Shown one piece after another: positions 11,292 through 47,559 of a stretch of 58,924 nt of DNA. Position 1 is the stretch's first letter. Every line of letters begins with the position of its first letter. Under the pieces are notes generated by a model, which was not told the DNA's origin, did no database searches, and saw only the letters and a program-made list of their open reading frames with translations. This DNA comes from a virus: IMG/VR virus record IMGVR_UViG_3300037119_004955, positions 1-58,924 of that record; one strand, written 5' to 3'. The position numbers and the translations under genes were made by a program.

Positions 11292-12302
11292 CTACATCTT
11301 CCGGACCTGAGAGCTAAAGTTCTTGATGCGCCAGTTGCCACGCTCCCGATACTGGAGGATAGCGCTGTCATGTAGTTCGACGTTGTACGCAAAGAGACCA
11401 GCGATGTCAGTGTCGATACGGTAGTTGCTGGCGAACAGTTCTCTGTTACGTCCAGCATTGTCATCGTTTAGTTCGTTCCACTGGTTCGTCATGTCCACGC
11501 GAGACCCGCCAATAGCCCCGTCCACAAAGTAGTACAGCCATCTCGCGAACGAGCCCTCGATCCCCATGTTATCTATCCGCAGCAAGTTCTGGACGCCCAC
11601 CAGCTGTATCAGCCCATCCTGAGCAGACTGATCTACGATACCGTTAAAAGCGCAGACCCATCCAGAGAACGAAGACTTCTGCCGTGCTGTGCCGATGTAC
11701 ATCGCGTCGGCTTTACGCCCGGCATACACCATCTGAATGTTTGTCACGTTGTGTCGATAGTTGGTGTATGATATTTCTCCGCCTCCCATGACTTGCCCGA
11801 CAGACCCTCCGCTCTTGTGTCGCAGGTTGTGCATGTCCATCGCATAGCAGCCAAGCCCTGTCGTACTCGGATCGTCTGATCCCCACCGGAACCCTATGTT
11901 GTCGATCTCGATGCCCTGGGTCTCGTGCGCGATACAGGTCTCGGACAGTCCGATAGCACATTTCGGCTGTACATCAAAGTCTGTCCCACCTACGTCTACG
12001 ATCATATCCGACACCTTGCCGTTGGTGTAGAAGCCATGACCGTTGACGGACTCGAACAATGCTACCGGCATCCCATTCGTCGTAAACAGTCTGGTGCCGA
12101 GTCGCTCTCCACGCAGCCATACTCCTGGCTTAATGAGCAGCGGCGTAGCTGCGATCTCGATGTCGCCAATAGGTAGCTGCACAACACCGCCATACGTGCC
12201 GGATCCATGAAAGATCCTCGACCCATCGGTAGCTGCTGCGTTGGCAGCATCTATCGCTGCTTGGATGTCGGCTTGATCTGCGCCTGGGTCAAGAATACTC
12301 AT
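11292..12302 (-). CDS. Right-handed beta-helix protein, tailspike-like
   Basis: The start of this 336-residue protein, ADQADIQAAIDAANAAATDG followed by GGVVQLPIGDIEI and LLIKPGVWLRGE, is the classic entry into a pectate-lyase/tailspike beta-helix: a helical cap, then the PPG-like parallel beta rungs. Later rungs are visible at MIVDVGGTDFD, IEIDNIGFRWG and NITNIQ-like segments. Such proteins bind or cut surface polysaccharide. I cannot assign catalytic residues. The start ATG 12302 overlaps the upstream stop by four bases and follows GGCGGAG. Confidence 0.75.
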   Translation of the reverse strand: MSILDPGADQADIQAAIDAANAAATDGSRIFHGSGTYGGVVQLPIGDIEIAATPLLIKPGVWLRGERLGTRLFTTNGMPVALFESVNGHGFYTNGKVSDMIVDVGGTDFDVQPKCAIGLSETCIAHETQGIEIDNIGFRWGSDDPSTTGLGCYAMDMHNLRHKSGGSVGQVMGGGEISYTNYRHNVTNIQMVYAGRKADAMYIGTARQKSSFSGWVCAFNGIVDQSAQDGLIQLVGVQNLLRIDNMGIEGSFARWLYYFVDGAIGGSRVDMTNQWNELNDDNAGRNRELFASNYRIDTDIAGLFAYNVELHDSAILQYRERGNWRIKNFSSQVRKM

Positions 12303-13285
12303 GCTCCGCCACCTTCCACCGGGAATACATACGGTGTAGACGTAAAGGGACTATCGAAGTGCCATCCGGTCACCGGCTCGCTGGTAACCGTCAGCGTCCT
12401 ATCCTGGATGGCACCGCCGGGAGAGTACGTGATTGTCACGAAGTCCGCGCTCTTGTCGAATATAGAGACTGGCGTCCCCATGCCGGATACCTGAAACATT
12501 GAAATGTCCGCCCCGGTATCAGGCTGAGCACTCATTGTTGGTTCAAACGTAAATGTCACTCTCGTCGAGGTTGTCTGCTCAGCAAAGATCAGAACCGTCT
12601 CTACTGTTGGCTCCACAGTAGTGCCGGTGGTCGGGACAATGAGGAACGAGTCTCCGAACGTCAGACCAGACGGAGCAGCATCAATCACATACGTCTGTGA
12701 ACCGGTGGAGTTCTCTGGGACAACCACTTGTATGATGTTGGCTCCCAAAGAAGTCGGCGTCGCGCTCACGTACTGCCCACCGATCTCGATCTCGTAAGGA
12801 ACCACCCCTGGGGTGATCGCTACCGTAGTGGTGAACGTCAGGCTGAACGTATTGGTTCCAGTTCTGGCCACCGACACAAGAGTGCCGGACACCGGAGCGA
12901 TGATGTCGGTAGAGGTGTTGCCGATATGTCCGTGTGTGATGTTTGCCGAAATACTCACCCCGACCATACCACGCATCCTAACCTCTTTTGCCTCGGCGTC
13001 CAGATACACGTCCACATCGCTCAGATTGTCTAGTTTGACATTATCTTCCAGAAGATGGTCTATCACAAAGTCGCCATCCTCCTCTACTTTCAGTGCATAT
13101 ACGTGACGAATCCACCCTCCCCCGACGAACCCATCCGCCCTCTTGAGCGCAGCGTTGATCTCATAAAAGTGGTAACCAGGACTTAACGACACAGATGCTA
13201 CGGTCTCGATAGTGCCGCCGTCAGACTCTGGACTGACGTTACTTGAGCTACTCCCGCTCCCGCTACCTGCTCTGTAGTATAGCAT
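12299..13285 (-). CDS. Ig-like beta-sandwich virion protein
   Basis: The 328-residue product begins with a Ser/Gly-rich stretch and then holds several beta modules: VASVSLSPGYHFYEINAALKR, a middle IPT-like module with NTFSLTFTTTVAITPGVVPY and TPTSLGANIIQVVVP, and a third around VTFTFEPTMSAQPDTG. The modules match the style of immunoglobulin-like adhesion domains in phage tails and fibres. No enzyme signature is visible. It is translationally coupled to the beta-helix gene downstream. Confidence 0.65.
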   Translation of the reverse strand: MLYYRAGSGSGSSSSNVSPESDGGTIETVASVSLSPGYHFYEINAALKRADGFVGGGWIRHVYALKVEEDGDFVIDHLLEDNVKLDNLSDVDVYLDAEAKEVRMRGMVGVSISANITHGHIGNTSTDIIAPVSGTLVSVARTGTNTFSLTFTTTVAITPGVVPYEIEIGGQYVSATPTSLGANIIQVVVPENSTGSQTYVIDAAPSGLTFGDSFLIVPTTGTTVEPTVETVLIFAEQTTSTRVTFTFEPTMSAQPDTGADISMFQVSGMGTPVSIFDKSADFVTITYSPGGAIQDRTLTVTSEPVTGWHFDSPFTSTPYVFPVEGGGA

Positions 13286-15552: not shown

Positions 15553-15735
15553 TCAGCTTTGAGCAGCCGCTACCACTCGCACCTCGTGCGGCGCAGGAGC
15601 GTGACCCACATAGTAATCACATAGCACCTTCCACCGAGCATTGTCGCCTTCCGGGAGGTGTGGGTTCGGGTCACCGCCGCTAAACATCTGACGGGGTTCC
15701 AGACGCTCTACGAACGTGGGACGCAGGACGTTCAT
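15553..15735 (-). CDS. 60-residue protein with an LEPR-type N-terminal motif
   Basis: The residues VERLEPRQMFSGGDPNPHLP near the N-terminus match the LEPR-x-LL type motif that starts many large surface proteins of planctomycetes and a few other bacteria. There the motif is followed by thousands of residues; here the protein ends after 60, with WKVLCDYYVGHAPAPHEVRV. ATG 15735 overlaps the stop of the upstream membrane protein by four bases, so the gene is coupled to it. It may be a decoy for, or inhibitor of, a host sorting system, or an exported peptide. This is inference from one short motif. Confidence 0.6.
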   Translation of the reverse strand: MNVLRPTFVERLEPRQMFSGGDPNPHLPEGDNARWKVLCDYYVGHAPAPHEVRVVAAAQS

Positions 15736-22939: not shown

Positions 22940-23668
22940 ATGGCTGACGATCGTGAAGTGATAGTTAACCGAATCAAGAAACTGATGGCTTACGCATCAG
23001 ACGGTTCTGCTACCGAAGCGGAAGTCGAGGCTGCCACCGGTCGCGTGCGTAAGTTGATGGACGAGTGGAACATCGCTCACTCCGAGATATCAACTAATCA
23101 CGACGCTGCCGAGACTGCTTACCAGAGCATCATCGAGGTGTCCTGCTTCGATCGCGCCAACGCGGTGCCGAAGTTCTTCCGGAGGCTAGCCCACGTGCCG
23201 GACAAGATCTGCGACACTAGCCATTACCTCGACAGCCGTGCCGATCCGAAGAAGCCGGGTAAGACCCGCGAGCACGTCGTGTACTATGGCCTGCCGCGTG
23301 ACGTCGAGGTGGCAGTAGCTCTCTTTAGAGAGTTACTCGCTACCTGCCACGCCATGACTTGGTTCCGCTGTGGTAAGGAAGGCTGGGGCGCAGACCACAA
23401 CAGCTACGCCATGGGCTTCGCCGATAGGCTCCTCGAGCGTGCCAAGGCCCAGCTGGCTGCCTCCCAAGTCGCTTGCAACACAACCGCCATAGTCCTGGTG
23501 AAGGGTAATCTGCTCAAGCGTTACCATGACAAGATCGGCCTAAGCCCGATGCGTTCTCGAGCAGGGCGCATGTCTGGCGGTAAATACGATCAAGGTTACT
23601 CCGACGGCGCAGGCGTCTCTCTGGGGGTAAACCAGATCAGTCGCGCTCCGAAAGGTCTCTTAGATTAG
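22940..23668 (+). CDS. DUF2786/DUF7168 family protein
   Basis: The first 50 residues (IVNRIKKLMAYASDGSATEA, then EVEAATGRVRKLMDEWNI) match the DUF2786 helical hairpin found in many phage and plasmid proteins. The rest (about 60-230) matches the style of the partner domain, with FFRRLAH, ELLATCHAMTWFRCG and a C-terminal SGGKYDQGYSDGAGVSLG. The role of the family is unknown; a metalloprotease-like fold has been suggested for relatives. AGAAGGAGG before ATG 22940 is part of a dispersed motif copy. Confidence 0.75.
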   Translation: MADDREVIVNRIKKLMAYASDGSATEAEVEAATGRVRKLMDEWNIAHSEISTNHDAAETAYQSIIEVSCFDRANAVPKFFRRLAHVPDKICDTSHYLDSRADPKKPGKTREHVVYYGLPRDVEVAVALFRELLATCHAMTWFRCGKEGWGADHNSYAMGFADRLLERAKAQLAASQVACNTTAIVLVKGNLLKRYHDKIGLSPMRSRAGRMSGGKYDQGYSDGAGVSLGVNQISRAPKGLLD

Positions 23669-33019: not shown

Positions 33020-33547
33020 ATGATATTTAAAGTAATCTCCGGCGGACAAACCGGTGTGGATATCTCAGGACTCCGCGCCGCCAAAAGTCTGGGCATAGAA
33101 ACTGGGGGGTGGATGCCACGACAGTACATGACTCATGATGGTTCTCACCCAGAATACGCTACCGAGTACGGTGTAAAGGTATTTGGTAGTTATAAAGATC
33201 GCACGTGGATGAACGTAAAGGCTTCCGACATCACCATCCGCATTGCGAAGGATTGGAACTCTTCTGGGGAAAACTGCACGCTCAATGCTTTGAAACATTA
33301 CGGTAAGACTTACTGGGATGTGGAGGTTGCGAACAATGGCGACGATGGACAGCTAATGTTTGTAAACTGTGTGAAAAACTCCATCGATGTAGTTTCAACG
33401 TTGATAGTTGCCGCAAAGCCGTACCAAAAAATCACAACTGTGAACATCGCTGGCAATAGTGAGAAGACCTGTCCAGGTATCGAAGAAATATCGCTTGTAT
33501 TTCTAACGGAACTATTCAAAAAGGTACTGCAATGGGACTCAAAGTAA
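33020..33547 (+). CDS. YpsA/SLOG-fold protein (putative molybdenum carrier family)
   Basis: The start, VISGGQTGVDISGLRAAKSL followed by GGWMPRQYMT, matches the putative molybdenum carrier family, a member of the SLOG/Rossmann-like superfamily that binds nucleotides. SLOG proteins sense nucleotide second messengers in several anti-phage systems, so a phage copy could be a ligand sponge or decoy; this is speculation. NTIRIAKDW- and NSSGENC-type loops precede a C-terminal helix. Two dispersed motif copies fall within the gene. It overlaps the next gene by 16 bases. Confidence 0.8.
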   Translation: MIFKVISGGQTGVDISGLRAAKSLGIETGGWMPRQYMTHDGSHPEYATEYGVKVFGSYKDRTWMNVKASDITIRIAKDWNSSGENCTLNALKHYGKTYWDVEVANNGDDGQLMFVNCVKNSIDVVSTLIVAAKPYQKITTVNIAGNSEKTCPGIEEISLVFLTELFKKVLQWDSK

Positions 33548-36790: not shown

Positions 36791-37356
36791 AAACGGCCAA
36801 ACCGGACCCACAGCCCGCAGCTGGAGGGTTCTTTCAAACTGGGAAGCGGCAACCGAGCCTCCCGGCACGCGGGACTGTCCTAGGCGTTGACTCAGGCGTG
36901 GGAGGGGCTGGATATGCCGTGGTTGGATACCTGGGCAAGGTGGTATCGCTTGAGAGCGCGGTAATTGTGAACACTAGCCCCAAAGAGTTCATGGCCGAGA
37001 GACTGAGGCAAATATGCGCTCCGTTGCGTGGGCTGATAGTATCGCTCGGAGTCAAGAACGTAGTGATTGAAAAGCCAGTGGTGTACGGCAACGAGATAAG
37101 CCAGGCTGCCGCCGTGAAGGGTGACCTGCACACGCTGTCGTTCAGCGTAGGTGCGATATGTCTCTGCTGTCTCGAGGCTGGAGTGTCGGCGGAAAACATT
37201 GAACTGATAAATCCAAACCAATGGAAGGGGCAACTGAGTAAGGGGCAGGTTGCGGAACGAGTGTATCCGCTAGTTGATCAACACAGGTTCTCACTTAAAA
37301 GCCACTCGATCGATGCTGCCGGCATTGCTCTATGGTGGTTAGGAATGTTTGTATGA
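36781..37356 (+). CDS. RuvC-like Holliday junction resolvase
   Basis: The RNase H-fold resolvase pattern is complete: GVDSGVGGAGYAVV with the first catalytic Asp (37), VVIEKPVVYG with the Glu (97), and SHSIDAAGIALW with the last Asp (178) and the preceding His. The N-terminal 30 residues are basic and probably flexible. The gene overlaps the helicase by 10 bases and MazG by four. It would resolve branched DNA before packaging. Confidence 0.88.
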   Translation: MRVKTAKPDPQPAAGGFFQTGKRQPSLPARGTVLGVDSGVGGAGYAVVGYLGKVVSLESAVIVNTSPKEFMAERLRQICAPLRGLIVSLGVKNVVIEKPVVYGNEISQAAAVKGDLHTLSFSVGAICLCCLEAGVSAENIELINPNQWKGQLSKGQVAERVYPLVDQHRFSLKSHSIDAAGIALWWLGMFV

Positions 37357-37769
37357 AGTTATCCGACACTGACATCTGTGCGTTACGCTCGGCTGCCGAC
37401 ATGGTACATAATACTGACTTCAGACTCGATGAGGTAGTGACGGCATGTAGGATCACCGACAAACGTCTGCATTTCGGCAGCGCGTTCTCGATCCTTCGCG
37501 CCGCCACCCGACTGGCTGGCGAAGCCGGTGAGTTTTGCAACGAGATCGGCAAGGTGGCATGCGCAGTCGGCCCCGGCTTCGAACTCACCGAGGAGCAGAA
37601 GAAGCGAGCCTCGCTCGAACTGTTCGACGCTTTCTGGTACATCCTCAAGAGTCTGCGCGAGATCGATGTTTCTCCCCAGAAGATGCTTGAGCTAGGCTTT
37701 ACAAAACTGGCCGATAAGTTCTCACAAGACAGACAGGAGTTAGAAAATGTTGAACCAACAGGACATTGA
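37353..37769 (+). CDS. MazG-like nucleotide pyrophosphohydrolase
   Basis: The 138-residue protein has the helical MazG site: LAGEAGEFCNEIGKV supplies the ExxE pair and ELFDAFWYILKSL the ExxxD pair. The C-terminal FTKLADKFSQDR is also typical. It hydrolyses (d)NTPs or ppGpp to monophosphates; in phages it can adjust nucleotide pools or lower stringent alarm. The start ATG 37353 overlaps the resolvase stop. VSPQKM is coded by a motif copy. Confidence 0.85.
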   Translation: MKLSDTDICALRSAADMVHNTDFRLDEVVTACRITDKRLHFGSAFSILRAATRLAGEAGEFCNEIGKVACAVGPGFELTEEQKKRASLELFDAFWYILKSLREIDVSPQKMLELGFTKLADKFSQDRQELENVEPTGH

Positions 37770-37941
37770 TAAGCTGGCAGAATTAGTTGAAAAAATGGGC
37801 CAGCATATCCAGAAGCAGATAAAGTGCACGATGGTGTCGGTGAAGCTGGCCGGCATGATCGCTCACAACAACTCTGCTACTGACCCAGACGAGATCTATT
37901 CGCAGGCCAGCTTTGAAGAGTTAGCAAAGGAACTGGAGTGA
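37747..37941 (+). CDS. Small helical protein
   Basis: The 64-residue product (IDKLAELVEKMGQHIQKQIK at the start) is one or two amphipathic helices with an acidic end. It overlaps MazG by 23 bases and the glycosylase by four. Function unknown. Confidence 0.6.
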   Translation: MLNQQDIDKLAELVEKMGQHIQKQIKCTMVSVKLAGMIAHNNSATDPDEIYSQASFEELAKELE

Positions 37942-38516
37942 TCGAACGCCGCCTGAATCTTCTCGGTAAACCCACCGCCCTGTCGTGGGCTGCGCACATT
38001 CTACCTTGGAACTTCTGCACCAAGTGTGATATTGCAGAACGTTGCAAGCATAAAGTCCTCGCTGCTGGAGTGCTGCCTTGCCAGGTGCTGTTCATCGGCG
38101 AAGGCCCAGGTGAGAACGAAGATAATACCGGCATGCCTTTCGTAGGACGTGCCGGCGACGTGTTGCAAAAGTGGATCGATCAATCGCTTTCCGTCACGCA
38201 GTATAGCTACGCAATCACCAATGTTGTGGCCTGTCGCCCTACTAGTCCGGAGGGGATAAATCGTCCCCCAACCGCATTCGAGATAGAAAACTGCAAGGCA
38301 CGTCTGATCAAGACTATCTCGATAGCGAATCCAAAAGGGATTGTACTGTTAGGAGGTATTGCAAGGGACAATCTACCAAACTCATATGCTGGAGAAACGC
38401 TCCACCTTTACCACCCGGCGTATATGTTTCGCGTAGGCAGTCGAAACTCAGATCTGAGTGACAGCCAGGCTGCTAGGTTAACTGATTGGGTCAAGCATCT
38501 TCTGGAGAAAAAATGA
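37938..38516 (+). CDS. Family 4 uracil-DNA glycosylase with iron-sulfur cluster
   Basis: The 192-residue protein shows CTKCDIAERC (Cys 27 and 30, plus 36), GEGPGENED (motif A, about 54-62), PFVGRAG, NVVACRPTSPEGINRP and the motif B HPAY near 159-162. Cys 99 and 119 would complete the 4Fe-4S ligands. The usual GEAPG is GEGPG. A phage making its own uracil excision enzyme would remove dUMP from its DNA, or could act on another modified base. The C-terminal HLLEKK is coded by a perfect motif. Confidence 0.87.
   Translation: MIERRLNLLGKPTALSWAAHILPWNFCTKCDIAERCKHKVLAAGVLPCQVLFIGEGPGENEDNTGMPFVGRAGDVLQKWIDQSLSVTQYSYAITNVVACRPTSPEGINRPPTAFEIENCKARLIKTISIANPKGIVLLGGIARDNLPNSYAGETLHLYHPAYMFRVGSRNSDLSDSQAARLTDWVKHLLEKK
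38498..38507 (+). repeat. Dispersed motif core, exact copy
   Basis: The copy spans the end of the glycosylase gene (HLLEKK) and supplies GGAG five bases before ATG 38513 of the nuclease gene. Confidence 0.85.
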
Positions 38517-39628
38517 GAGTAGCACTAGCCAAGAAGAAGATGCCAACCGTTCGGTGCCCGCGCAGCTTGGAGTGGGTGCCGAATGATGGCTTGTTCCAAG
38601 GGCGCGAGGAATCGATATGGAACTTCTGGCGGGATGGGGTGACTGCGACTCTCGGTGCGAAGTTCCTCGAATGCAACTACCAGTGTTATCTGATGTTCGT
38701 GAAAGGACTCCGTGCTAGAGAGGTTCCAATCTCGCTGGAGTTCGGCACTGCGATGCACTGGTGTCTAGAACAGATCTACACCCAGTTCCGCAACAGCGGT
38801 AAGAAGTTATGGACGCTGGTCGAGGTTATAGGAATCGCTGCTAGGTACATGGATCGTTGGCGGAGGCTCAACCCGATGCCAACTAAGAGCCAGACCGCGA
38901 TAATGGAGCACGCCATCGGGATGGCCGAGATAATCCTGCCGAGGTATCTTGAGGTGTGGAAGTCTGACTTCGATCCGAAGATCAAGTCGGTGGGCGGGGT
39001 CATTTCTCCAGCGAAGTATCTATCTCTGGAGGAGAAGTTCAAAGTGATGTATACCTATCCGGATGGGCGCAGTGTGCCGCTGCAAGGGAAGCGCGACGTA
39101 AAGTTTGAGAGTGCCGCCGGAATCAAATACATCCGCGATACTAAGTGCCTTTCCATAATCAAAACTAGTGACATACTGGCGACGATACAGTATGACTTTC
39201 AACAGATGCTCTATCTGACGTGCGCCCGCGCAGAAGAGGAAGCAACAGGAATGGATCCAAAGAGAATGACTAAGGGTATCACGATGGATATTATCCGTCG
39301 CCCCGGTCAGAAAATAAGTAAGTACAGGACGCTGCGCGATCTTCTGGAGAAGGTACGAGCCGAAGTGCAGAACGCCAAGAAGGTGGATCACTACTTTGTA
39401 CGCCCGCAAGCATTGGTGTCGCAGTTTGAAATCAAACGATGGGCGGATATGGTGCTGCATCCCACAATGCGAGCGATACGGGAATGGTGGGAAGGAAAAC
39501 GTCCACTAAGTATCACCCCGGCGGCACTAGCCGGCAAGTATGGCATCAGCCCTTATCTCGCGCCGACTAATGGGGACTTCCGAAACACATACGTGTGTCC
39601 AGTGGTATTCCCAGAACTGGAGGATTAA
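38513..39628 (+). CDS. PD-(D/E)XK nuclease, RecB/Cas4-like
   Basis: The 371-residue protein has LEFGTAMHWCLEQIY (His-containing motif I, about 75-90), a Glu in SLEEKFKV, GKRDVKF (Asp 195) and IRDTKC (Asp 209, Lys 211), followed by YDFQQMLYLTCARAE, the QxxxY motif. This is the RecB-type exonuclease fold (PDDEXK_1, Cas4-like). With the Sak4-like ATPase and single-strand binding protein next to it, it likely resects DNA ends for annealing. Confidence 0.87.
   Translation: MRVALAKKKMPTVRCPRSLEWVPNDGLFQGREESIWNFWRDGVTATLGAKFLECNYQCYLMFVKGLRAREVPISLEFGTAMHWCLEQIYTQFRNSGKKLWTLVEVIGIAARYMDRWRRLNPMPTKSQTAIMEHAIGMAEIILPRYLEVWKSDFDPKIKSVGGVISPAKYLSLEEKFKVMYTYPDGRSVPLQGKRDVKFESAAGIKYIRDTKCLSIIKTSDILATIQYDFQQMLYLTCARAEEEATGMDPKRMTKGITMDIIRRPGQKISKYRTLRDLLEKVRAEVQNAKKVDHYFVRPQALVSQFEIKRWADMVLHPTMRAIREWWEGKRPLSITPAALAGKYGISPYLAPTNGDFRNTYVCPVVFPELED
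39340..39349 (+). repeat. Dispersed motif core, exact copy
   Basis: Inside the nuclease gene, coding for DLLEKVR. Confidence 0.85.
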
Positions 39629-39629
39629 C

Positions 39630-39866
39630 GTGGTACGCACAGGAACAATCGTGACCGGCGGAGTTTTGCCGTCCGGAACAAGAGTGAGAATAAATCTAGT
39701 AAGCGTAATCGCCGTGGATGGAGAAGGTGGCTATCGAGGCCACCCACCCATAGCGTATTTTCGCCCAGAAGATGTCGCCCTAGACCAGGAGACCACACAT
39801 GCCGTTGATGGCCAAGAGATCCGTGCTGGCAAAGAAGGAAATAAGCTCCCTTCTACCCAGGCGTAG
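39630..39866 (+). CDS. Small beta-rich protein (GTG start)
   Basis: The 78-residue product starts at GTG 39630, with CTGGAGG upstream and one base after the nuclease stop. TGTIVTGGVLPSGTRVRINL suggests a small barrel. RPEDVA is coded by a motif copy. It overlaps the next gene by 68 bases, which is long for this genome. Function unknown. Confidence 0.55.
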   Translation: MVRTGTIVTGGVLPSGTRVRINLVSVIAVDGEGGYRGHPPIAYFRPEDVALDQETTHAVDGQEIRAGKEGNKLPSTQA

Positions 39867-40704
39867 CCCAATCATCGATACTTTATCTCTGCCGACAGAG
39901 AAGAGCGAGGCTTCGCACAATATTGAGGACTATCTGTACCTCATTCACGGTCTGAAGAAGATCGGCAAGACCACATTCTCCATCCAAGGCGGAAATGTGT
40001 TACTGCTGACCTTCGACCCGGTGGAACCAGCGTACGAGATATTTCAACGGCACTGCCCGAACTGGGAAACGTTCGAGGGATACATCACCCTGCTGGAGCA
40101 AGCTGCTGCGAATGGCTCGTACCCGTATTCGCGCGTAGTGTTCGACCGCACCGACATAGCGTATCGCGAATGCCAAAAGTATATATGTAAGAAGGCGAAG
40201 GTGCGTCACCCCACTGAGGCGAATGATTTCGGTATGACTTGGGACGAGCTATACAAGACGTACGAAGGGGCGGTCAAGAGACTGATGGCCCTCCCCGGCG
40301 GATGTTGGTTTCTCTGCCACTCCGAAAATCAGGAGACAGAGAACCGCAAGGGTGAAAAGCATCAGCTGCTTGCGCCAATGATGAAAGACAAAGCGTCGGA
40401 GGCAATCACTGGCAGGGTGCAGGCTTGGTTTGCCTACACCTATGACGGATCCGACCGGGTGCTTGTAACCCTGGGAGACGAGCGTACAAATGCAGGACAC
40501 AAAATCAAGGGACACTTTCTGACCCAAGACGGTCGGCGGGTGCGCGAAATATACATGGGCGAAAACGAAGAACAGTCGTGGGACAACTTCGTAAACGCAT
40601 TCAACAACAATCAGACTTACGCTACCATCGCCGAGTTGCGCGCAGCAAAGGTGGCGGAGAAACGACTGAAAGGAGGCGGACTAAAGATTAAGCGCGCTGT
40701 GTGA
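39799..40704 (+). CDS. Sak4-like RecA-fold ATPase (AAA_24)
   Basis: The 301-residue protein has Walker A GLKKIGKTTF (51-60), a SRVVFDRTDIAYREC Walker B strand and an LMALPGGCWFLCHSEN sensor strand, matching the AAA_24/Sak4 group. Sak4 proteins are short RecA relatives that help single-strand annealing with a phage single-strand binding protein, here probably the next gene. The start ATG 39799 has AGGAG seven bases upstream. Confidence 0.85.
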   Translation: MPLMAKRSVLAKKEISSLLPRRSPIIDTLSLPTEKSEASHNIEDYLYLIHGLKKIGKTTFSIQGGNVLLLTFDPVEPAYEIFQRHCPNWETFEGYITLLEQAAANGSYPYSRVVFDRTDIAYRECQKYICKKAKVRHPTEANDFGMTWDELYKTYEGAVKRLMALPGGCWFLCHSENQETENRKGEKHQLLAPMMKDKASEAITGRVQAWFAYTYDGSDRVLVTLGDERTNAGHKIKGHFLTQDGRRVREIYMGENEEQSWDNFVNAFNNNQTYATIAELRAAKVAEKRLKGGGLKIKRAV

Positions 40705-40730
40705 TCACAATTTCTGAGAAGGAGCCATCA

Positions 40731-41591
40731 ATGGCTATCGCGAAAAAAGCAGCGGCACCGGTTGCAAAAGCAGCCCCCGCTAAAGTTACGAAGTCAGCAC
40801 CGGCGGTGAAGAGTGCAATGAGTGACGTGGAAAAAGCCTTGCGCGCTATGAAGGACAAATTCAACGCAGCGAAGGAAGCGAGTAACCGTCCGCAGTCCGA
40901 TACTACGCTGACCCATGGCCCGCACATCTGCCGCCTCACTGACGGTGACTTGAAGGTCACCAAGTACGGGCTGTCCATGGTGCTCGAGTGGACCTGCGTT
41001 GAAGAGGTGGAGACCGGCGAGAAAGCAGTTTCAATGCACAGTTTCGGCGAGGCGGACTACATGGAACGCTCGCTCCGCACGCTTCGCATGCTCGGAGCCG
41101 ATGTGGACTCGATCGTGCCCGAGAATCTCCACACTGCGTTGCCTGCCGCTGTAGCTGGCGTCATCGAGGCGCAGCCGTTTGCCAAGATCGGCGTGAATGT
41201 CACCGACTCGGCGGTGAAGGCGTACGTCAACGACGTACTCACCGAGGAGGAAGCCGCTGAGTTCGCAGCTGCTGCCGACTCAATCGCTGAACCCGCTGCC
41301 GAGGAGGAGGTTCCTGCTGAGGAGGAAGCCCCTGCCGAGGAGGAAGCCCCCGCTGAGGAAGAGGCTGCCGCAGAGGAAGCTGTTCCAGATGACGAAGAGG
41401 TGAACATCGGCGACTCGGTGCGGTTCGAATGTGTTCCGCCTACCACATGGAAACTGCCAGCCAAGAAGACAGTCTTCACCGGCAAGGTGACGGCCATAAA
41501 CGAGGCCGAAGGCAAGGCCACCGTGAAGGAAGATAAGACCGGCAAGAGCGTCGTGCTCACCGGTGATCGAATCGAGAAGATCCTGACCTGA
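40731..41591 (+). CDS. DUF669-like single-strand DNA binding protein
   Basis: From ATG 40731 (GAAGGAGCC upstream) the product has 286 residues: a basic Ala-rich tail (PVAKAAPAKVTKSAPAVKSA), an OB-fold-like core with HICRLTDGDLKVTKYGLSMV and EWTCVEEVETGEKAVSMHSF, a tandem acidic repeat (EEEAPAEEEAPAEEEAAAEE, about 200-225) and a C-terminal SH3/KOW-like region (DSVRFECVP; TGKVTAINEAEGKATV). Acidic tails recruit partners in single-strand binding proteins. Position after Sak4 agrees. Confidence 0.75.
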   Translation: MAIAKKAAAPVAKAAPAKVTKSAPAVKSAMSDVEKALRAMKDKFNAAKEASNRPQSDTTLTHGPHICRLTDGDLKVTKYGLSMVLEWTCVEEVETGEKAVSMHSFGEADYMERSLRTLRMLGADVDSIVPENLHTALPAAVAGVIEAQPFAKIGVNVTDSAVKAYVNDVLTEEEAAEFAAAADSIAEPAAEEEVPAEEEAPAEEEAPAEEEAAAEEAVPDDEEVNIGDSVRFECVPPTTWKLPAKKTVFTGKVTAINEAEGKATVKEDKTGKSVVLTGDRIEKILT

Positions 41592-41669
41592 AGGCGTCCC
41601 ACGCCCCACTAAGGATTGGACCGCAGGCCGGAGAGGGTAGGGAGTAGTCGCTCTGCCCCTCCGGTCTGA

Positions 41670-41679
41670 TCTTCTGGAG
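41670..41679 (+). repeat. Dispersed motif core, exact copy
   Basis: An intergenic copy; its GGAGG lies nine bases before ATG 41690 and is the ribosome binding site. Confidence 0.85.
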
Positions 41680-41689
41680 GAAAACAAAC

Positions 41690-42238
41690 ATGAAGTTTTA
41701 CATCGCTGCTCCGTTTTTCAACGACGTACAGTTGGGTGCAGTCAAAGCACTCGAACTCATCATCGAGGAACACGGACATCAGTATCATTCTCCCCGCCTA
41801 CACCCACGTAACGCTGGCGCTAGTAAGCTTGAGAAGCTGACGCAGGATCAGGCTGAGGAGATCTTTCAAGACGACGTCAAAGGCATCGTGCATTCGAATG
41901 CCGTCATCGCCACCCTTGACTGGCTACTCCCAGAGAATGACGTCGTCCAGCATGTCAGAACTACCGGTAGCGAAGTCAAGGTTACGCCGCTTAACCTCCC
42001 CGACACCGGCACCGTGTTCGAGATGGGCTATGCCTACTCATACGGCAGGCCCATCTTCGGGCTTACGTACCGACCAGTCGGAGACCGCCTCAACCTGATG
42101 CTAACGCAGTCTTGCAAGGCCGTGATCTACGGTCTTGATCAGCTTCGTGGTTTTATGTCGAGCGTCAAGACTGGGGTGGCAGGCGACATCTCCTGGGACA
42201 GAACAATAATAGGCGGATGGAAAGGTGAGCACCGATGA
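41690..42238 (+). CDS. Nucleoside 2-deoxyribosyltransferase-like protein
   Basis: The 182-residue protein shows the family start KFYIAAPFFNDVQLGAVK, an IVHSNAVIATLDWL strand with the Asp, and DTGTVFEMGYAYSYGRPIFG with the catalytic Glu. The fold binds deoxynucleosides or their phosphates and exchanges or cuts bases. Relatives include dNMP N-glycosidases. A hairpin (CCGGAG...CTCCGG) lies in the 98-base gap before it. It overlaps the next gene by four bases. Confidence 0.85.
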   Translation: MKFYIAAPFFNDVQLGAVKALELIIEEHGHQYHSPRLHPRNAGASKLEKLTQDQAEEIFQDDVKGIVHSNAVIATLDWLLPENDVVQHVRTTGSEVKVTPLNLPDTGTVFEMGYAYSYGRPIFGLTYRPVGDRLNLMLTQSCKAVIYGLDQLRGFMSSVKTGVAGDISWDRTIIGGWKGEHR

Positions 42239-42897
42239 AACTGTCCATCGAAGCAATGATGCGTGGCCAAGCCGCAAGGCTTCGAGCCGTTCAACGCTAC
42301 AGTACCTGCGACGTCCACTATCCAGAGAATGTCGCCGAGCACTCGTTCCACGTCGCCTTCTACGCGCTGATGGTCGGCACGTGGTATCTGGATAACGCCA
42401 CCAAGGACCGCATCAGCAACGTGTATTATGATGGCGATTTGTCTCTGGAGAAGTTGCTAAGCCGAGCGATACTCCACGATCTGGAGGAGGCTCGCACCGG
42501 AGACTTCCCGCGATCTTTCAAGCATTCATCCCAGCAGTTGATGCACCAGCTGGACCAGATGGCTAGTGATGCTTTAGTGTCGATACTCGGGGAACTGTGC
42601 CCAGACGCTTTCTCCGCCAATAGCACGGTAGGTGCAAACCTCCTGTCTCACTGGGAAATGGCTAAGGATGAAACTCTCGAAGGTAGTATCATCCTGTTCT
42701 GCGATTACCTTGCCGTTCTCTCATACGTAATGCGAGAGATAGATTCAGGCAACTACTCGATAGTCCGGCATGTGGCGGAAATGGATAAGTATGCCGAAGA
42801 GTTCAAAAATCAAAGGTTTGACTTCATCCGACCTCTCGTTAGCGAGTCGTGGGAACTCCACCAAGCAGTTCTCAAGATCGGACCTAGTCAAACTTAG
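42235..42897 (+). CDS. YfbR-like HD-domain 5'-nucleotidase
   Basis: The 220-residue product has AEHSFHVAFYAL (metal His 36), ILHDLEEARTGD (HD 80-81) and DAFSANSTVG-type later helices. YfbR enzymes remove phosphate from deoxynucleoside monophosphates. With MazG, the deoxyribosyltransferase-like protein and ThyX it forms a nucleotide-handling set. The gene ends within the start of the next frame. Confidence 0.83.
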   Translation: MKLSIEAMMRGQAARLRAVQRYSTCDVHYPENVAEHSFHVAFYALMVGTWYLDNATKDRISNVYYDGDLSLEKLLSRAILHDLEEARTGDFPRSFKHSSQQLMHQLDQMASDALVSILGELCPDAFSANSTVGANLLSHWEMAKDETLEGSIILFCDYLAVLSYVMREIDSGNYSIVRHVAEMDKYAEEFKNQRFDFIRPLVSESWELHQAVLKIGPSQT

Positions 42898-43267
42898 GAA
42901 ACAACGCGAGGCGATGTACGGCAACACTGCGCATAACATGCGCACGCTGGGCATCGCCTTCACTTCGCTAATCGAGGCGCAGTACGGAATAAGGCTTCCG
43001 TACGCGATTCCTCCCCACGTGGCTGCGCTTGTGATGGTCCATATCAAGACGGTGCGCGCCTGTGGGCCGACGTACCACGGCGACAATTACGACGACGCGC
43101 ACAACTTTCTAACTTTTGCACAGGAATGCGATGAACATATTACTAACCGGCGGCACAAGCGGAATAGGAAGAACGATAGAGCGAAAATTGCGGGAACAGA
43201 AGCACAAGGTATTCGTGGCGGGAAAGGGGGAGCAGTCAGATTACCAGGCGGACTTCAACACCTGTGA
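42791..43267 (+). CDS. DUF6378-like protein overlapping both neighbours
   Basis: The core (REAMYGNTAHNMRTLGIAFT; ALVMVHIKTVRACGPTYHGD; DDAHNFLTFAQEC) matches the helical DUF6378 domain of tailed phages, whose function is unknown. The N-terminal helix of the domain begins before ATG 42914, so I place the start at ATG 42791, inside the HD gene (107-base overlap). The 3' end runs 137 bases into the SDR gene and its product there is basic and low in structure. A frameshift or recent stop-codon loss may explain the tail. Confidence 0.55.
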   Translation: MPKSSKIKGLTSSDLSLASRGNSTKQFSRSDLVKLRKQREAMYGNTAHNMRTLGIAFTSLIEAQYGIRLPYAIPPHVAALVMVHIKTVRACGPTYHGDNYDDAHNFLTFAQECDEHITNRRHKRNRKNDRAKIAGTEAQGIRGGKGGAVRLPGGLQHL

Positions 43268-43871
43268 CGAGGAAGGAGTAAAAGACATATTCGAGGACGC
43301 TAGTGACGCGATGGGCGGACCGATCGAATGTCTTATCAACAACGCCGGTTGGACGAATATCGATTGGCTAGAAGATCAGGATCCGAGTAAGATGAGCGAG
43401 AACATCAGAGCTAACTTGATATTCCCTATGTTTTTCTCCAGAGAGATGGCGCGCCTAACGCCGGTATCTCCTGGGGGAAAAGCGGGTCTGCGAAAGAGAA
43501 TCATTAACACTGGGTCGATGGCCACCAAGATGTCAATGCGGGCGAGTGCCCCTTACTGCGCTTCCAAGGGTGGGCTGGAAGCGTTCACTCGCCAGGCTGC
43601 AAAGGAATTTGCCGGCAGGAAACCGATAGACATCTTCATGGTATCCCCGTGTACTATTGCCGACACCGCCATGTCCGAGCAGGTAGTCCATGATCTGGTA
43701 AGGACTAGGAGAATGACCGAGGCAGAAGCTCGCAAGTATGCTATGCAGTCTCCGCTCGGTCGCGTCGCCACTCACGAGGAGGTGTGGAGAGCCTTTGACT
43801 TCTTCGTGAATAGAGCAACCTCAGCGTACTCCGGAACTGTATTATACCTAACAGCAGGGATGGGACTATGA
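43131..43871 (+). CDS. Short-chain dehydrogenase/reductase
   Basis: The 246-residue protein has the full SDR set: TGGTSGIG (6-13) for NAD(P), INNAGW, the serine in INTGSMATKM, and YCASK with the catalytic Tyr and Lys, then a VSPCTIADTAMS substrate loop. Substrate cannot be told from sequence. SDRs are uncommon in phages; here, in a nucleotide block, it might modify a sugar or base precursor. A motif copy (FFSREMA) lies near residue 100. ATG 43131 has AGGA upstream. Confidence 0.88.
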   Translation: MNILLTGGTSGIGRTIERKLREQKHKVFVAGKGEQSDYQADFNTCDEEGVKDIFEDASDAMGGPIECLINNAGWTNIDWLEDQDPSKMSENIRANLIFPMFFSREMARLTPVSPGGKAGLRKRIINTGSMATKMSMRASAPYCASKGGLEAFTRQAAKEFAGRKPIDIFMVSPCTIADTAMSEQVVHDLVRTRRMTEAEARKYAMQSPLGRVATHEEVWRAFDFFVNRATSAYSGTVLYLTAGMGL

Positions 43872-44086
43872 CAAGGAAAGAACTAGTTATAGCAGTAATC
43901 ACCAGATGTATAAAGCACGATGATTCTGATCCCGACGTGATCATCGCAAGGCTAGCTAAGGATATCGGCAAGGCCAACTTAATAAGCTTTATGACCATGC
44001 CGATCAGGGACATAGTTCAAACACTCGGCGAGCTAACGATCCAAGAGGCGTACGAGATATACAAAAAGTCGAAAGGAGAAGCATGA
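43868..44086 (+). CDS. Small helical hypothetical protein
   Basis: A 72-residue product (ELVIAVITRCIKHDDSDPDV; TLGELTIQEAYEIYKKSKGE), coupled to SDR and ThyX by four-base overlaps. Function unknown. Confidence 0.6.
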   Translation: MTRKELVIAVITRCIKHDDSDPDVIIARLAKDIGKANLISFMTMPIRDIVQTLGELTIQEAYEIYKKSKGEA

Positions 44087-45354
44087 AAGCCAAGATCACT
44101 TTAATGGCGTGGACGCAGCCGCTCATCGAGACGATCTACTGTGAATGGGAGTTGAGTCGATCCGAGGGACCGGTGCCGACTCCGCAGGAGGTGCGGCAGC
44201 TTATCGCTGATGAAAGAATGGTCTCGCGACTGGCCCGGCAAAGAGGAGTAAGCCGCGAGCAAGCCACCGAGATGTTCAAGAGCCATGAGTTCTCGGTCGA
44301 GTTCATCCCAGAAGATCCTCCACTCCCGATGATGGATTATGAGCGTAAGGTGCGGAAGGTGTTCGAAGACTGTGTGCAGATGAAGGTGCCCTTGGCGGAG
44401 ACGGTGGGGTTCGTATTCGCGCTCGAAAACATCTCTATCTCACTCCGCGAACAGCTAGTGCGGCACCGCGTCGGACACAAGTTCGGACCCAACTTCGCAG
44501 TCGGGCTCATGCCAGATGAGCCGTCGTCAAGCTATTGGTCCCAGTCGATGCGGGCGTATAACGTTGGGGCGTTCGCCAAGAACAAGCAATATCTTGTGCC
44601 GACATGGATCGAGGAGCATCTCAACGACCAGATTAATAATCCTGGCATTATGATGGCTGGCGGGGACAAGTGCACGGTGGAGACCGTATATCGAAGGGGG
44701 ATGCGGATGGCAGAGGAACACTACCGATGGCTGATCGAGGCTGGTTGTCCTCCAGAAGATGCCCGCAACCTGCTGCCTGTCGGTATTAATCACCGTCTCA
44801 CATGGTCCTGCAACCTGTCCTCTCTCGTGCACCTGCTCAGCAAACGAGGGTGCTGGATCGCCCAGATGGATATGTGGGAGCCGATCGTCCGCGGTATCGT
44901 GGATGAACTCTGTACCAAAGTGGACCCGTACTTTCGCACCCTGATCGACCCGCCGTGCGTGAGCGGGAATGAGTTCGTCGGCTGCAAGTTCCACAAGGAG
45001 AACAAAGAGTACATTAAAGGAACCGATCCACACTACCCCTGCCCACTCTGGCTACACAACCATGAAGACAAAGTGAGCGAAGGAATCAACGAGGCACAAT
45101 ACGGGCAAGAGACGTGGGGGTGGAACCATTCCCTGGGTGAAAACAAATCGGTGCCTGTAAAGGCGAAGAATGCGTCGGGCGGCCAGATCACCGCTTCTCC
45201 CAGAAGATCGTACGTAAGTGGGGAGCGGAAGATAGGCGAGTCCAAGACCGAAAGTCTCCGTCGTGAGTGGGATGGGTTCGCCAAGCGTAGGGAAGTTTAC
45301 GCGAGTCTGTGGGGGCGTGATCCTTACACTGGCAAAAGGGTTAGGATGGGTTAG
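44083..45354 (+). CDS. thyX: Flavin-dependent thymidylate synthase ThyX, divergent
   Basis: The 423-residue protein is about twice usual ThyX length. LREQLVRHRVG (RHR at 127-129) and DARNLLPVGINHRLTWSCNL, then SLVHLLSKR, are ThyX hallmarks. The canonical RHRxxSxNExSxR is interrupted by about 18 residues, and its second half reads SYWSQSMR, so Asn-Glu is replaced. A Cys/His-rich insertion (CVSGNEFVGCKFHKENKEYI) follows near residue 300. Changed active-site residues may mean altered substrate, for example making a modified pyrimidine. PPEDAR is both a family motif and a dispersed motif copy. Confidence 0.87.
   Translation: MKAKITLMAWTQPLIETIYCEWELSRSEGPVPTPQEVRQLIADERMVSRLARQRGVSREQATEMFKSHEFSVEFIPEDPPLPMMDYERKVRKVFEDCVQMKVPLAETVGFVFALENISISLREQLVRHRVGHKFGPNFAVGLMPDEPSSSYWSQSMRAYNVGAFAKNKQYLVPTWIEEHLNDQINNPGIMMAGGDKCTVETVYRRGMRMAEEHYRWLIEAGCPPEDARNLLPVGINHRLTWSCNLSSLVHLLSKRGCWIAQMDMWEPIVRGIVDELCTKVDPYFRTLIDPPCVSGNEFVGCKFHKENKEYIKGTDPHYPCPLWLHNHEDKVSEGINEAQYGQETWGWNHSLGENKSVPVKAKNASGGQITASPRRSYVSGERKIGESKTESLRREWDGFAKRREVYASLWGRDPYTGKRVRMG
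44750..44759 (-). repeat. Dispersed motif core, exact copy
   Basis: It codes for PPEDAR, a segment conserved in ThyX proteins generally, so here the match may be partly imposed by the protein. Confidence 0.7.
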
Positions 45355-45374: not shown

Positions 45375-45434
45375 ATGCTCTCTCGAGGACCGTACAATGT
45401 CAAGGTTGATAGAAGGGGACCTGATAGCGTTTGA
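45375..45434 (+). CDS. Possible 19-residue leader peptide before the polymerase
   Basis: ATG 45375 has AAAGGA at ideal spacing and opens a 19-codon frame (MLSRGPYNVKVDRRGPDSV) that overlaps the polymerase start in another frame. The polymerase ATG 45397 has only GAGG. Leader translation could control polymerase output. Confidence 0.35.
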   Translation: MLSRGPYNVKVDRRGPDSV

Positions 45435-47559
45435 CACAGAAACGACGGGGCTATACCCATGGAAAGGAGACAAGCCGTTTGCGTTTTCATTCTGTAACGA
45501 AAAGTTTGAGACCGCGTACATCGAGTTCGAAGTAAATCCGTTCAACCGCCAGCCGATCGTAGATCACGACGCACTGGACCTGGCTAGGAAGGTACTGGAA
45601 GATGAGTCCGTTGTCAAAGTAATGCACAACGGTAAGTTTGACGTGCGCATGTGCGATATGGGATACGGCATACATCTGGCCGGTCCTGGCGGGAGGGTTA
45701 GTCAAGGAGGAGACTTCGAAGAAACAATGTTCGCAGCGCATTGCTGCAACTCCCTCGAGCCTACTCTCAAACTCAAAAGGCTCGGTGATAAATACACCCC
45801 GGTGAGTTCAGCCGATGAGAAGGAGTTAAAATCATGCGTCACCAGACTGCGCAAGAAGGCTGAAAAGCTTGGCTGGATGATCAAGATCGAACCGCGCCTC
45901 AAGCCAGAGGGGGAGGTGAAGAGGAAGAAGGATGCTGAGGGCCCAGCTGACTACTGGATACCGTACACGCTCCACCGTCGCCACCCAGAACTCTGTTCCG
46001 AATACGAATCAACGCTGTGCGAGAAGTACGCGGTGTTCGACGCAGTCCGCACAATGTATCTGCATATCCTGTATCGCGACCTGCGGGAGCGGCTGGACGT
46101 AAACCACACCTACCAGTTTGAAAAAACCATATGGCCAATAGTTTACCATATGGAGTATCGCGGCGTGCACGCCTTCCCGGACAAGCTTGAAGATCGGATG
46201 AATGACTGTATCAAGGCGCGCGCCGATCTCTGGAAAAGAATCATCGCTATCAACGATGGACCGCTGAATACCGGCAAGTACTCGGACATGTACAACTACA
46301 TCTACAACATTTGCGAGATACCGTTTGACGAGCGTTGGATGACTAAGAAGTCCCACAAGCCGTCCACCGGTCGCAAGGTGATGGAGATGAATCGCGCTGA
46401 CGAGCGTATTGACATGGTCATCAAGTACAAGGCTAACGGCAAGGCTTTTGATTACTTCGCCGACTATCAGCGGTTGTCTGTCCCAGAAGGTGCCGGCACC
46501 ATCTTACACCCGGATTTCCAGCAGATAGGACCCAAGACCGGACGGTTCGCTTGTCGCAGCCCGAACATCCAGCAAGTCACCGACATTTCCAGCGCGACAT
46601 CGCTCGAGCCTCAAGACATTCGCTGCGTGTTCGGTCCTCGCCCCGGTTACGTGTGGTTCCACAATGACTACAAAGGAATGGAAGTCAACGTGTACGCTGA
46701 TTGCTCGCAGGAGCCTAACATGCTCCGAGCCATCGCCGAAGGCCGAGAGATTCACGATGAGGTCACGAACCGTGCTTGGGGAGGTCGAGGAAACGAACGA
46801 GGTCTAAAGGAGTGCGTACACGTACTGGGGTTGGACGGCACTGACCCAGGCAATAACGATGACTTGGTCAAGCTACTGCGGTCGTGGAGTATTACCCCAG
46901 GTCGTAAGCTGCCGGTGCAAGAAGCGTATGATATCGCTGATGCCTGGATGAGAAAGTTCGACTGGGATATCGTGAAGGCTCAAGCAAGCATCGGAAAAAA
47001 GGTCACCAAGAATAAAGCTAAGATGGTGACCTTCCTGAAGATCTATGGCGGGGGCGTGGATGGTGCAATGACTTTGCTCAAGATGAGCAGAGAAGAGACG
47101 TATGACTTCCTACAGCACTACAACAACACCTTCCCCCGAATCCCAGAATACCAAGCAGAATTATCTGAGCAGGCTAAGCTAGATGGGTACGTCAGAACTT
47201 TGTATGGCAGGCGTCTTGAAGTTCGCCGCTACAAGGCTTATCAAGCGGTGAACTACGTTGTACAAGGTACTTCCGCCGACCTGCTCAAGGCCGCCATGAT
47301 CAAATGTTCCAACCACTTCCATAGAAACTGGCTAGACGCTCACATCATTATGCCGGTACACGACGAACTAGCTTTTGAAATCAACAGGCGGGATATGACT
47401 TATCGACTCGCCAACGAGATCTGCGACTTTATGGAGGACACCGATGGAAATATAAACGTGCCGATGAAGGTTGATCCCTCTCTTGTGACCGAGCGGTGGT
47501 CAATCAAGGAAAAGGTTACGCTTGATAGGAAAGCGTGGGCATTGAGGAAGGCGGCATGA
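45397..47559 (+). CDS. Family A DNA polymerase with 3'-5' exonuclease domain
   Basis: The 720-residue protein has exonuclease motifs FDTETTG (12-18) and HNGKFDVRM, and polymerase motifs GRFACRSPNIQQV, motif A NDYKGMEVNVYADCSQ, the O-helix KNKAKMVTFLKIYGGG, LYGRRLEVRRYKAYQAVNY and motif C PVHDELAFE. In the O-helix the Phe matching E. coli Phe762 is kept, the first Arg is Lys, and the Gly after Phe is Leu. An insertion between motif A and the O-helix is about 60 residues longer than usual. It is the replicative polymerase. Confidence 0.95.
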   Translation: MSRLIEGDLIAFDTETTGLYPWKGDKPFAFSFCNEKFETAYIEFEVNPFNRQPIVDHDALDLARKVLEDESVVKVMHNGKFDVRMCDMGYGIHLAGPGGRVSQGGDFEETMFAAHCCNSLEPTLKLKRLGDKYTPVSSADEKELKSCVTRLRKKAEKLGWMIKIEPRLKPEGEVKRKKDAEGPADYWIPYTLHRRHPELCSEYESTLCEKYAVFDAVRTMYLHILYRDLRERLDVNHTYQFEKTIWPIVYHMEYRGVHAFPDKLEDRMNDCIKARADLWKRIIAINDGPLNTGKYSDMYNYIYNICEIPFDERWMTKKSHKPSTGRKVMEMNRADERIDMVIKYKANGKAFDYFADYQRLSVPEGAGTILHPDFQQIGPKTGRFACRSPNIQQVTDISSATSLEPQDIRCVFGPRPGYVWFHNDYKGMEVNVYADCSQEPNMLRAIAEGREIHDEVTNRAWGGRGNERGLKECVHVLGLDGTDPGNNDDLVKLLRSWSITPGRKLPVQEAYDIADAWMRKFDWDIVKAQASIGKKVTKNKAKMVTFLKIYGGGVDGAMTLLKMSREETYDFLQHYNNTFPRIPEYQAELSEQAKLDGYVRTLYGRRLEVRRYKAYQAVNYVVQGTSADLLKAAMIKCSNHFHRNWLDAHIIMPVHDELAFEINRRDMTYRLANEICDFMEDTDGNINVPMKVDPSLVTERWSIKEKVTLDRKAWALRKAA

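Follow-up and report, generated by a model that had tools for sequence, protein, structure and literature searches.

A conserved ThyX-linked gene cassette upstream of a phage DNA polymerase as a candidate for thymine replacement

Why would a phage place a deoxyribosyltransferase-like protein, a YfbR-like phosphohydrolase, and a divergent ThyX protein just upstream of its DNA polymerase? This question is raised by the viral record IMGVR_UViG_3300037119_004955, which was analyzed over its full length of 58,924 nt (the window). A preliminary description had regarded positions 37353-45354 as one nucleotide-handling set that could make a modified base. Profile searches of the window proteins against Pfam, PHROG, NCBIfam, and PDB recovered all the genes it had named, on the plus strand upstream of the polymerase gene: those for a MazG-like protein, a uracil-DNA glycosylase (UDG), a protein of the nucleoside 2-deoxyribosyltransferase (NDT) family, a YfbR-like HD phosphohydrolase (HD), a DUF6378 protein, a short-chain dehydrogenase/reductase (SDR), and ThyX. 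But genes for an exonuclease, a Sak4-like AAA protein, and an acidic protein are interspersed, and the tight cluster is confined to positions 41690-45354. This cluster is a genuine conserved cassette. Its association with enzymes of the phages SP-15 and YerA41, which the earlier description had missed while being right in substance, makes replacement of thymine the likely function.

The cassette opens with the NDT-family protein (41690-42238; nucleoside 2-deoxyribosyltransferase/dNMP N-glycosidase superfamily; PF05014, 7.5e-15; phrog_7995), followed by the HD protein (42235-42897; PF12917, 7.5e-19), the DUF6378 protein (42770-43267; PF19905, 8.7e-8), the SDR (43131-43871; PF00106, 1.2e-25), a 72-aa open reading frame (ORF) without a Pfam match that separates SDR from ThyX (43868-44086), and a ThyX-like flavoenzyme of 423 aa (44083-45354; PF02511, 1.5e-20, above the cut-off). 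All are encoded on the plus strand, as is the adjoining PolA-type DNA polymerase with a 3'-5' exonuclease domain (45397-47559; PF00476, 1.1e-55; PF01612, 4e-9). Overlaps of a few bases between NDT and HD, SDR and the 72-aa ORF, and the latter and ThyX are operon-like; the DUF6378 ORF overlaps both flanking genes in a different frame, and its start position is uncertain. The same gene order was found in another IMG/VR contig, L040, with identities of 49% for NDT, 42% for HD, 36% for DUF6378, 33% for SDR, and 40% for ThyX. PolA (41% identity) adjoins the cassette there, too, and the primase/helicase (43%) also keeps its place in the order. Because L040 retains the order NDT-HD-DUF6378-SDR-ThyX-PolA at 33-49% identity, the grouping is not due to chance. 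Parts of it were retained in L053 (UDG with 42% identity, exonuclease, NDT, HD as detected by profile, and ThyX) and in L036 (DUF6378, SDR with 42% identity, and ThyX), the DUF6378 protein having the same position and domain in L036 and L040. Searches for related loci with the single window proteins ThyX and PolA gave no matches, whereas a search with a DNA signature succeeded.

This signature, a DNA pattern for the motif KR..WIAQ...W, returned 81 contigs from IMG/VR, and ThyX relatives are encoded at 76 of these loci. Together with two further contigs, L097 and L098, they make up a family set of 78. NDT is encoded near the subfamily ThyX in 70 of these contigs, HD in 63, and both in 62. Among 80 canonical phage ThyX controls, searched with the same models and over longer flanks, neither NDT nor HD nor SDR was found once (0/80 each), a comparison whose significance is overstated by the Fisher test, since the controls mostly represent one Firmicutes ThyX lineage and the family contigs are related to each other. 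SDR was detected near 19 of the 78 subfamily proteins at a looser threshold. Of 18 family records scanned in full, 15 contained both NDT and HD; the exceptions were L036 (a 29-kb fragment), L097 (82 kb), and L098 (40 kb). When the ThyX proteins were clustered at 50% identity and whole records were counted, too, both genes were present in 20/22 clusters. The isolates SP-15, YerA41, phiXF1, Carin-5, GXN1, 1.031.O, and LIS04 combine a ThyX-like protein with NDT and HD, and five isolate phages with canonical ThyX lack both. In the window itself, the ThyX-like protein has Trp in place of the canonical Asn85 and a KRxxWxAQ-type signature, and an NDT with the catalytic-Glu motif and a YfbR-like HD are encoded close to it. 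Since NDT and HD accompany this ThyX subfamily, which counts the SP-15 and YerA41 proteins among its members, a modified-base function of the window genes is strongly supported by analogy with the relatives. Two members of the originally proposed set are weakly tied to it: a weak, two-sequence model detected no MazG near the family contigs, and UDG accompanies the set only in L053 and SP-15.

The window ThyX shares its fold with the canonical enzyme (PF02511; T. maritima TM0449) and retains an intact RHR motif (aa 127-129, positions 44461-44469) as well as the counterparts of R147, N163, and R174. It differs from it by the N-terminal W..SR motif, the Trp, an insertion, the KRxxWIAQ signature, and a C-terminal extension with three cysteines. 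The altered active-site motif had been described correctly: RHR is followed by a 20-residue stretch (44470-44529), about 17-18 residues above the short fixed spacing of canonical ThyX, and then by the substrate loop SYWSQSMR (aa 150-157, 44530-44553), in which Trp takes the place of Asn in the canonical S.N..S.R loop. The insertion is common to the window protein, L040, L053, L036, and L097, and LIS04-type relatives lack it; since this stretch is conserved in four relatives, the insertion is a subfamily trait and not a sequencing error. The signature KRGCWIAQMDMW (aa 254-265, 44842-44877) includes R255, which aligns with R174 of T. maritima. In the extension (44878-45072), which is common to tandem-type relatives, C292, C301, and C320 are invariant in family alignments and possibly form a metal site. 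The structural model has low confidence (pLDDT 63.5); among the fold matches listed, all with Z of at least 7.7 are ThyX proteins, the best having a Z of 9.9 and a root mean square deviation (rmsd) of 6.9 over 178 residues.

Three traits are shared by the ThyX proteins of the window, LIS04, and the SP-15 gp130 type, namely the N-terminal W..SR, Trp in place of Asn85, and an extended C-terminus that includes a DP-type motif; the KR..WIAQ...W motif is additionally present in many members. The window protein is a single-domain ThyX. A two-part, tandem organization was found in phiXF1, YerA41, SP-15 gp130, and most IMG/VR signature matches. MAFFT misaligned the window protein with the tandem gp130, and the two parts were therefore compared as profiles. 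The first part matched window residues 95-251 (92%, E 8e-7) and was modelled as a full ThyX domain (residues 17-201, Z 10.5, rmsd 3.3 over 172 residues); the second part, which bears its own RHR segment, matched residues 232-329 (99%, E 6e-21). Profile similarity between the two parts was not detectable; they are called "tandem" because each matches the window ThyX, over different stretches, and because a strand-helix pattern recurs in the model. The three-Cys extensions of the window and tandem types also matched as profiles (96%, E 2e-9), as did the window-type and canonical ThyX (E 9e-24). At the profile level, the window type thus is a bridge between canonical and tandem ThyX; the phylogenetic tree does not resolve the nesting among the window-type, LIS04-type, and canonical proteins. 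The closest relative from an isolate is LIS04_124 (3e-19). A scan of cellular-genome contigs for window-type ThyX yielded 68 pattern matches but no relatives, and with the strict patterns used absence is unproven.

The base made by one of these phages has been described. SP-15 DNA carries 5-(4',5'-dihydroxypentyl)uracil (DHPU) (PMC5977210), which, according to earlier work as cited in that paper, is synthesized as a nucleoside triphosphate with label derived from ribose. The SP-15 genome paper from 2018 reported two ThyX proteins, one of which, gp130, had no homologues (PMC5977210). In our analysis, SP-15 genes 127-130 encode NDT, a protein without assigned function, SDR (gp129), and the ThyX-like gp130, an order that parallels the window. 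SP-15 also resembles the window in having an SDR gene, which in SP-15 directly precedes the ThyX-like gene, and a family-4-like UDG (gp100, E 8e-20). LIS04, which belongs to the same species (Thornevirus SP15), encodes the single-domain ThyX-like protein LIS04_124 near NDT, and has HD as well. LIS04_124 shares part of the C-terminal extension with the window ThyX, but lacks the three-Cys motif and the insertion after RHR, and SDR is not detectable in LIS04. In contrast to the window, SP-15 and LIS04 have HD elsewhere in the genome; they also possess sugar-transfer genes for decorating the base, of which none was seen in the window, and the first part of the tandem gp130 has no intact RHR. LIS04 retains most DHPU-decorating genes; no report of an analysis of its DNA was found in the literature searched. 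In both phages, gene 9 encodes an ordinary thymidylate synthase, a canonical ThyX in SP-15 and ThyA in LIS04. Since gene 9 covers the synthesis of thymidine monophosphate (dTMP), the ThyX-like protein near NDT is free for another reaction. YerA41, which carries about 1 kDa on thymidine (PMC9023294), likewise encodes NDT, HD, and a ThyX-like protein with the KRxxWIAQ signature, but its ThyX is tandem, the genes are dispersed, sugar genes are more numerous, and no SDR adjoins ThyX.

The NDT and HD proteins of the window belong to superfamilies with known roles in phage nucleotide pools. The window NDT matched an N-deoxyribosyltransferase (PDB 6evs, 5.9e-12) and bears the catalytic-Glu motif DTGTVFEMG, whose pattern DxG[TV]xxExG is kept in 70/70 family NDTs. 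The NDTs of SP-15 (L009, 3930-4880) and LIS04 (L001, 4170-5135) consist of two NDT-like halves, the second without this motif. DmtZ, a phage enzyme of the NDT family, hydrolyzes deoxyadenosine monophosphate and transfers 2-deoxyribose 5-phosphate (PMC12884076). The window HD matched YfbR (2paq, 4e-7) with a conserved HDxxExxTGDxP motif, and its best phage matches include 1.031.O, 150E35-1, GXN1, SP-15, phiXF1, and LIS04. Dtm, a YfbR-family protein of the deoxyuridine (dU) phage DSS3_VP1, removes the thymidine nucleotide (PMC12697855), and by analogy the window HD probably removes dTMP or dTTP. The window cassette thus employs the same superfamilies as the 2-aminoadenine (Z) phages with DmtZ/DatZ and the dU phages with Dtm, which use them to clear one normal nucleotide; it differs in the target base, the absence of PurZ, and the linked ThyX-like enzyme. 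A related HD gene lies directly before PolA in Rhizobium phage RHph_TM30 (L179, 7971-11971), with a dCMP deaminase nearby; this phage may represent another thymine-altering group.

Taken together, we propose that the cluster is a pre-replicative thymine-replacement cassette that would lower dTMP and make a 5-substituted deoxyuridine monophosphate (dUMP), the probable route being a flavin-dependent addition of an aldehyde derived from deoxyribose. We assign this whole reading a probability of about 45%; thymine replacement alone, as suggested by the association with the SP-15/YerA41 subfamily, is likely. Where the preliminary description named a normal pyrimidine or dU-containing intermediates, the evidence points more narrowly to thymine, altered ahead of replication in the way known from SP-15. 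In the proposed pathway, HD, perhaps together with the NDT-family protein, would remove dTMP. The following three steps are suggested by chemistry: the NDT-family glycosidase would free 2-deoxyribose 5-phosphate from a deoxynucleotide; the ThyX-like flavoenzyme would couple the C1 aldehyde of the pentose, in place of the folate methylene, to C5 of dUMP, via an N5 adduct of the reduced flavin and subsequent reduction to 5-(polyhydroxypentyl)-dUMP; and the SDR, probably a side-chain reductase, would adjust the side chain by reduction. Finally, kinases and the phage PolA would insert the modified nucleotide into DNA, while UDG would clear stray uracil and possibly guards against dU in the DNA. 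A bacterial ThyX accepts formaldehyde, which reacts through a flavin carbinolamine (PMC8316439), and the precedents of Dtm, DmtZ, and ThyX with formaldehyde together suggest a coupling of the deoxyribose aldehyde to dUMP. That a repurposed ThyX joins an NDT-supplied, deoxyribose-derived aldehyde to C5 of dUMP, as a widespread and unrecognized phage pathway to thymine-replacing hydroxypentyl-uracil nucleotides, is a tentative proposal. The masses would fit: dU plus deoxyribose, minus H2O and plus H2, gives 346.138, and a further loss of H2O and gain of H2 gives 330.143, the nucleoside core of SP-15. For YerA41, precursor and fragment ions of 918/572, 1102/756, and 1286/940 have a constant difference of 346, which the authors read as T + 104 (PMC9023294). 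By nominal mass this difference equals 346.138, the trihydroxypentyl-dU core, an agreement that is only suggestive.

Several observations weigh against this proposal. Besides the narrow set of controls mentioned above, L097 encodes a window-type ThyX without detectable NDT or HD, and L098 lacks both as well, although these records may be fragments. In L097, a P-loop kinase-like ORF lies just downstream of ThyX in this exception to the cassette (9809-10756 and 11954-12589). Single BLASTP comparisons of the window ThyX, SDR, and NDT with SP-15 gp130, gp129, and gp127 gave weak E values of 2e-4, 3e-4, and 8e-4. No glycosyltransferase was seen among the window proteins in the Pfam/PHROG scans. The agreement at 346 Da is nominal, depends on a published interpretation, and other formulae fit as well. 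A single-domain ThyX with intact RHR would also be compatible with plain dTMP synthesis, and the base assigned to the window phage is a prediction.

The strongest alternative is a 5-hydroxymethyl-dUMP cassette, in which the ThyX-like enzyme moves a folate-derived one-carbon unit that is quenched by water, HD and NDT merely deplete dTMP, and decoration follows later. The SP-15 authors proposed gp130 to be a hydroxymethyluridylate synthase (PMC5977210), and a role in dT depletion suits both HD and NDT. But a one-carbon unit does not explain the C5 chain of SP-15 with its ribose label and its synthesis as a triphosphate, as far as that work is summarized in PMC5977210, and the SDR beside the ThyX-like gene in the window, L040, and SP-15 also speaks against this alternative. 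Genes of the 5hmdU-kinase/aG/PT-PPlase hypermodification pathway (hmdU kinase and PPlase) were not seen in the Pfam/PHROG scans of the window proteins, which included no search aimed at them. We consider this alternative unlikely. Somewhat less probable still is ordinary nucleotide metabolism, in which ThyX would be a thymidylate synthase that has diverged, while NDT, HD, MazG, and SDR would serve salvage and pool sanitization in general. The retained RHR and R147-, N163-, and R174-aligned residues agree with it, as do the L097 ThyX without NDT or HD and the failure to detect a further thymidylate synthase, be it ThyA or ThyX, in the window. It is at odds with the near-constant presence of NDT or HD with the subfamily and their absence from all canonical controls, and with the second, ordinary thymidylate synthase of SP-15 and LIS04.

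Uracil could take the place of thymine in the DNA if HD cleared dTMP, for which the YfbR-family Dtm of DSS3_VP1 is a precedent, but this is very improbable, as the predicted family-4 UDG would attack such DNA and the ThyX-like enzyme would consume dUMP. A Z genome with HD as DatZ, MazG as MazZ, NDT as DmtZ, and PolA as DpoZ is very unlikely as well: the best PHROG match of HD is a dATP triphosphohydrolase family and Z phages do possess NDT-family DmtZ and YfbR-family DatZ (PMC12884076), but PurA/PurZ (PF00709) had no match in this possibly incomplete record, with 14/14 controls detected, the score with the DpoZ model NF038380 was 125 bits (cut-off 500) and lower than that with plain PolA, and HD is closer to YfbR (4e-7) than to DatZ (0.005).

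The SP-15 base was reported in 1972, and its biosynthesis had not been worked out in the literature searched, nor did we find an earlier report linking the cassette to the SP-15 and YerA41 enzymes. gp130 can now be assigned to an extensive subfamily of phage ThyX proteins whose genes are accompanied by those for NDT and HD. The thymine-replacement proposal gives a specific reaction and masses, and the single-domain members are suited for expression. If true, ThyX enzymes would gain a new reaction that forms carbon-carbon bonds, the way in which the SP-15 base is made would be explained and the core of the YerA41 base predicted, and phages that replace thymine could be predicted from their genomes by a sequence signature.

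The remaining genes of the interval named initially, all on the plus strand, encode the MazG-like protein (37353-37769), a weak call with a phrog_229 match of E 1.9e-4 and no Pfam match, the family-4 UDG (37938-38516; PF03167, 7e-24; TIGR00758, NCBIfam family 4, 6.8e-29), a PD-(D/E)XK exonuclease (38516-39628), the Sak4-like AAA protein (39799-40704), and the acidic protein, which had no match (40701-41591). In Vibrio phage 1.031.O (L013, 9821-10108), an acyl-carrier-like protein is encoded between an NDT-like ORF and MazG, adjoining the ThyX-like gene. Farther upstream in the window, we found a cpYpsA-type SLOG protein (33020-33547, plus strand; PF12694, 8.6e-22), a member of a nucleotide-binding superfamily that is at times tied to signalling or defence. 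A DUF2786/DUF7168 protein (22940-23668, plus strand) is encoded amid many small ORFs left of the replication genes. A short ORF on the minus strand (15553-15735) starts with MNVLRPTFVERLEPRQMFSG, which resembles an N-terminal motif frequent among Planctomycetota proteins and is a possible hint to the host.

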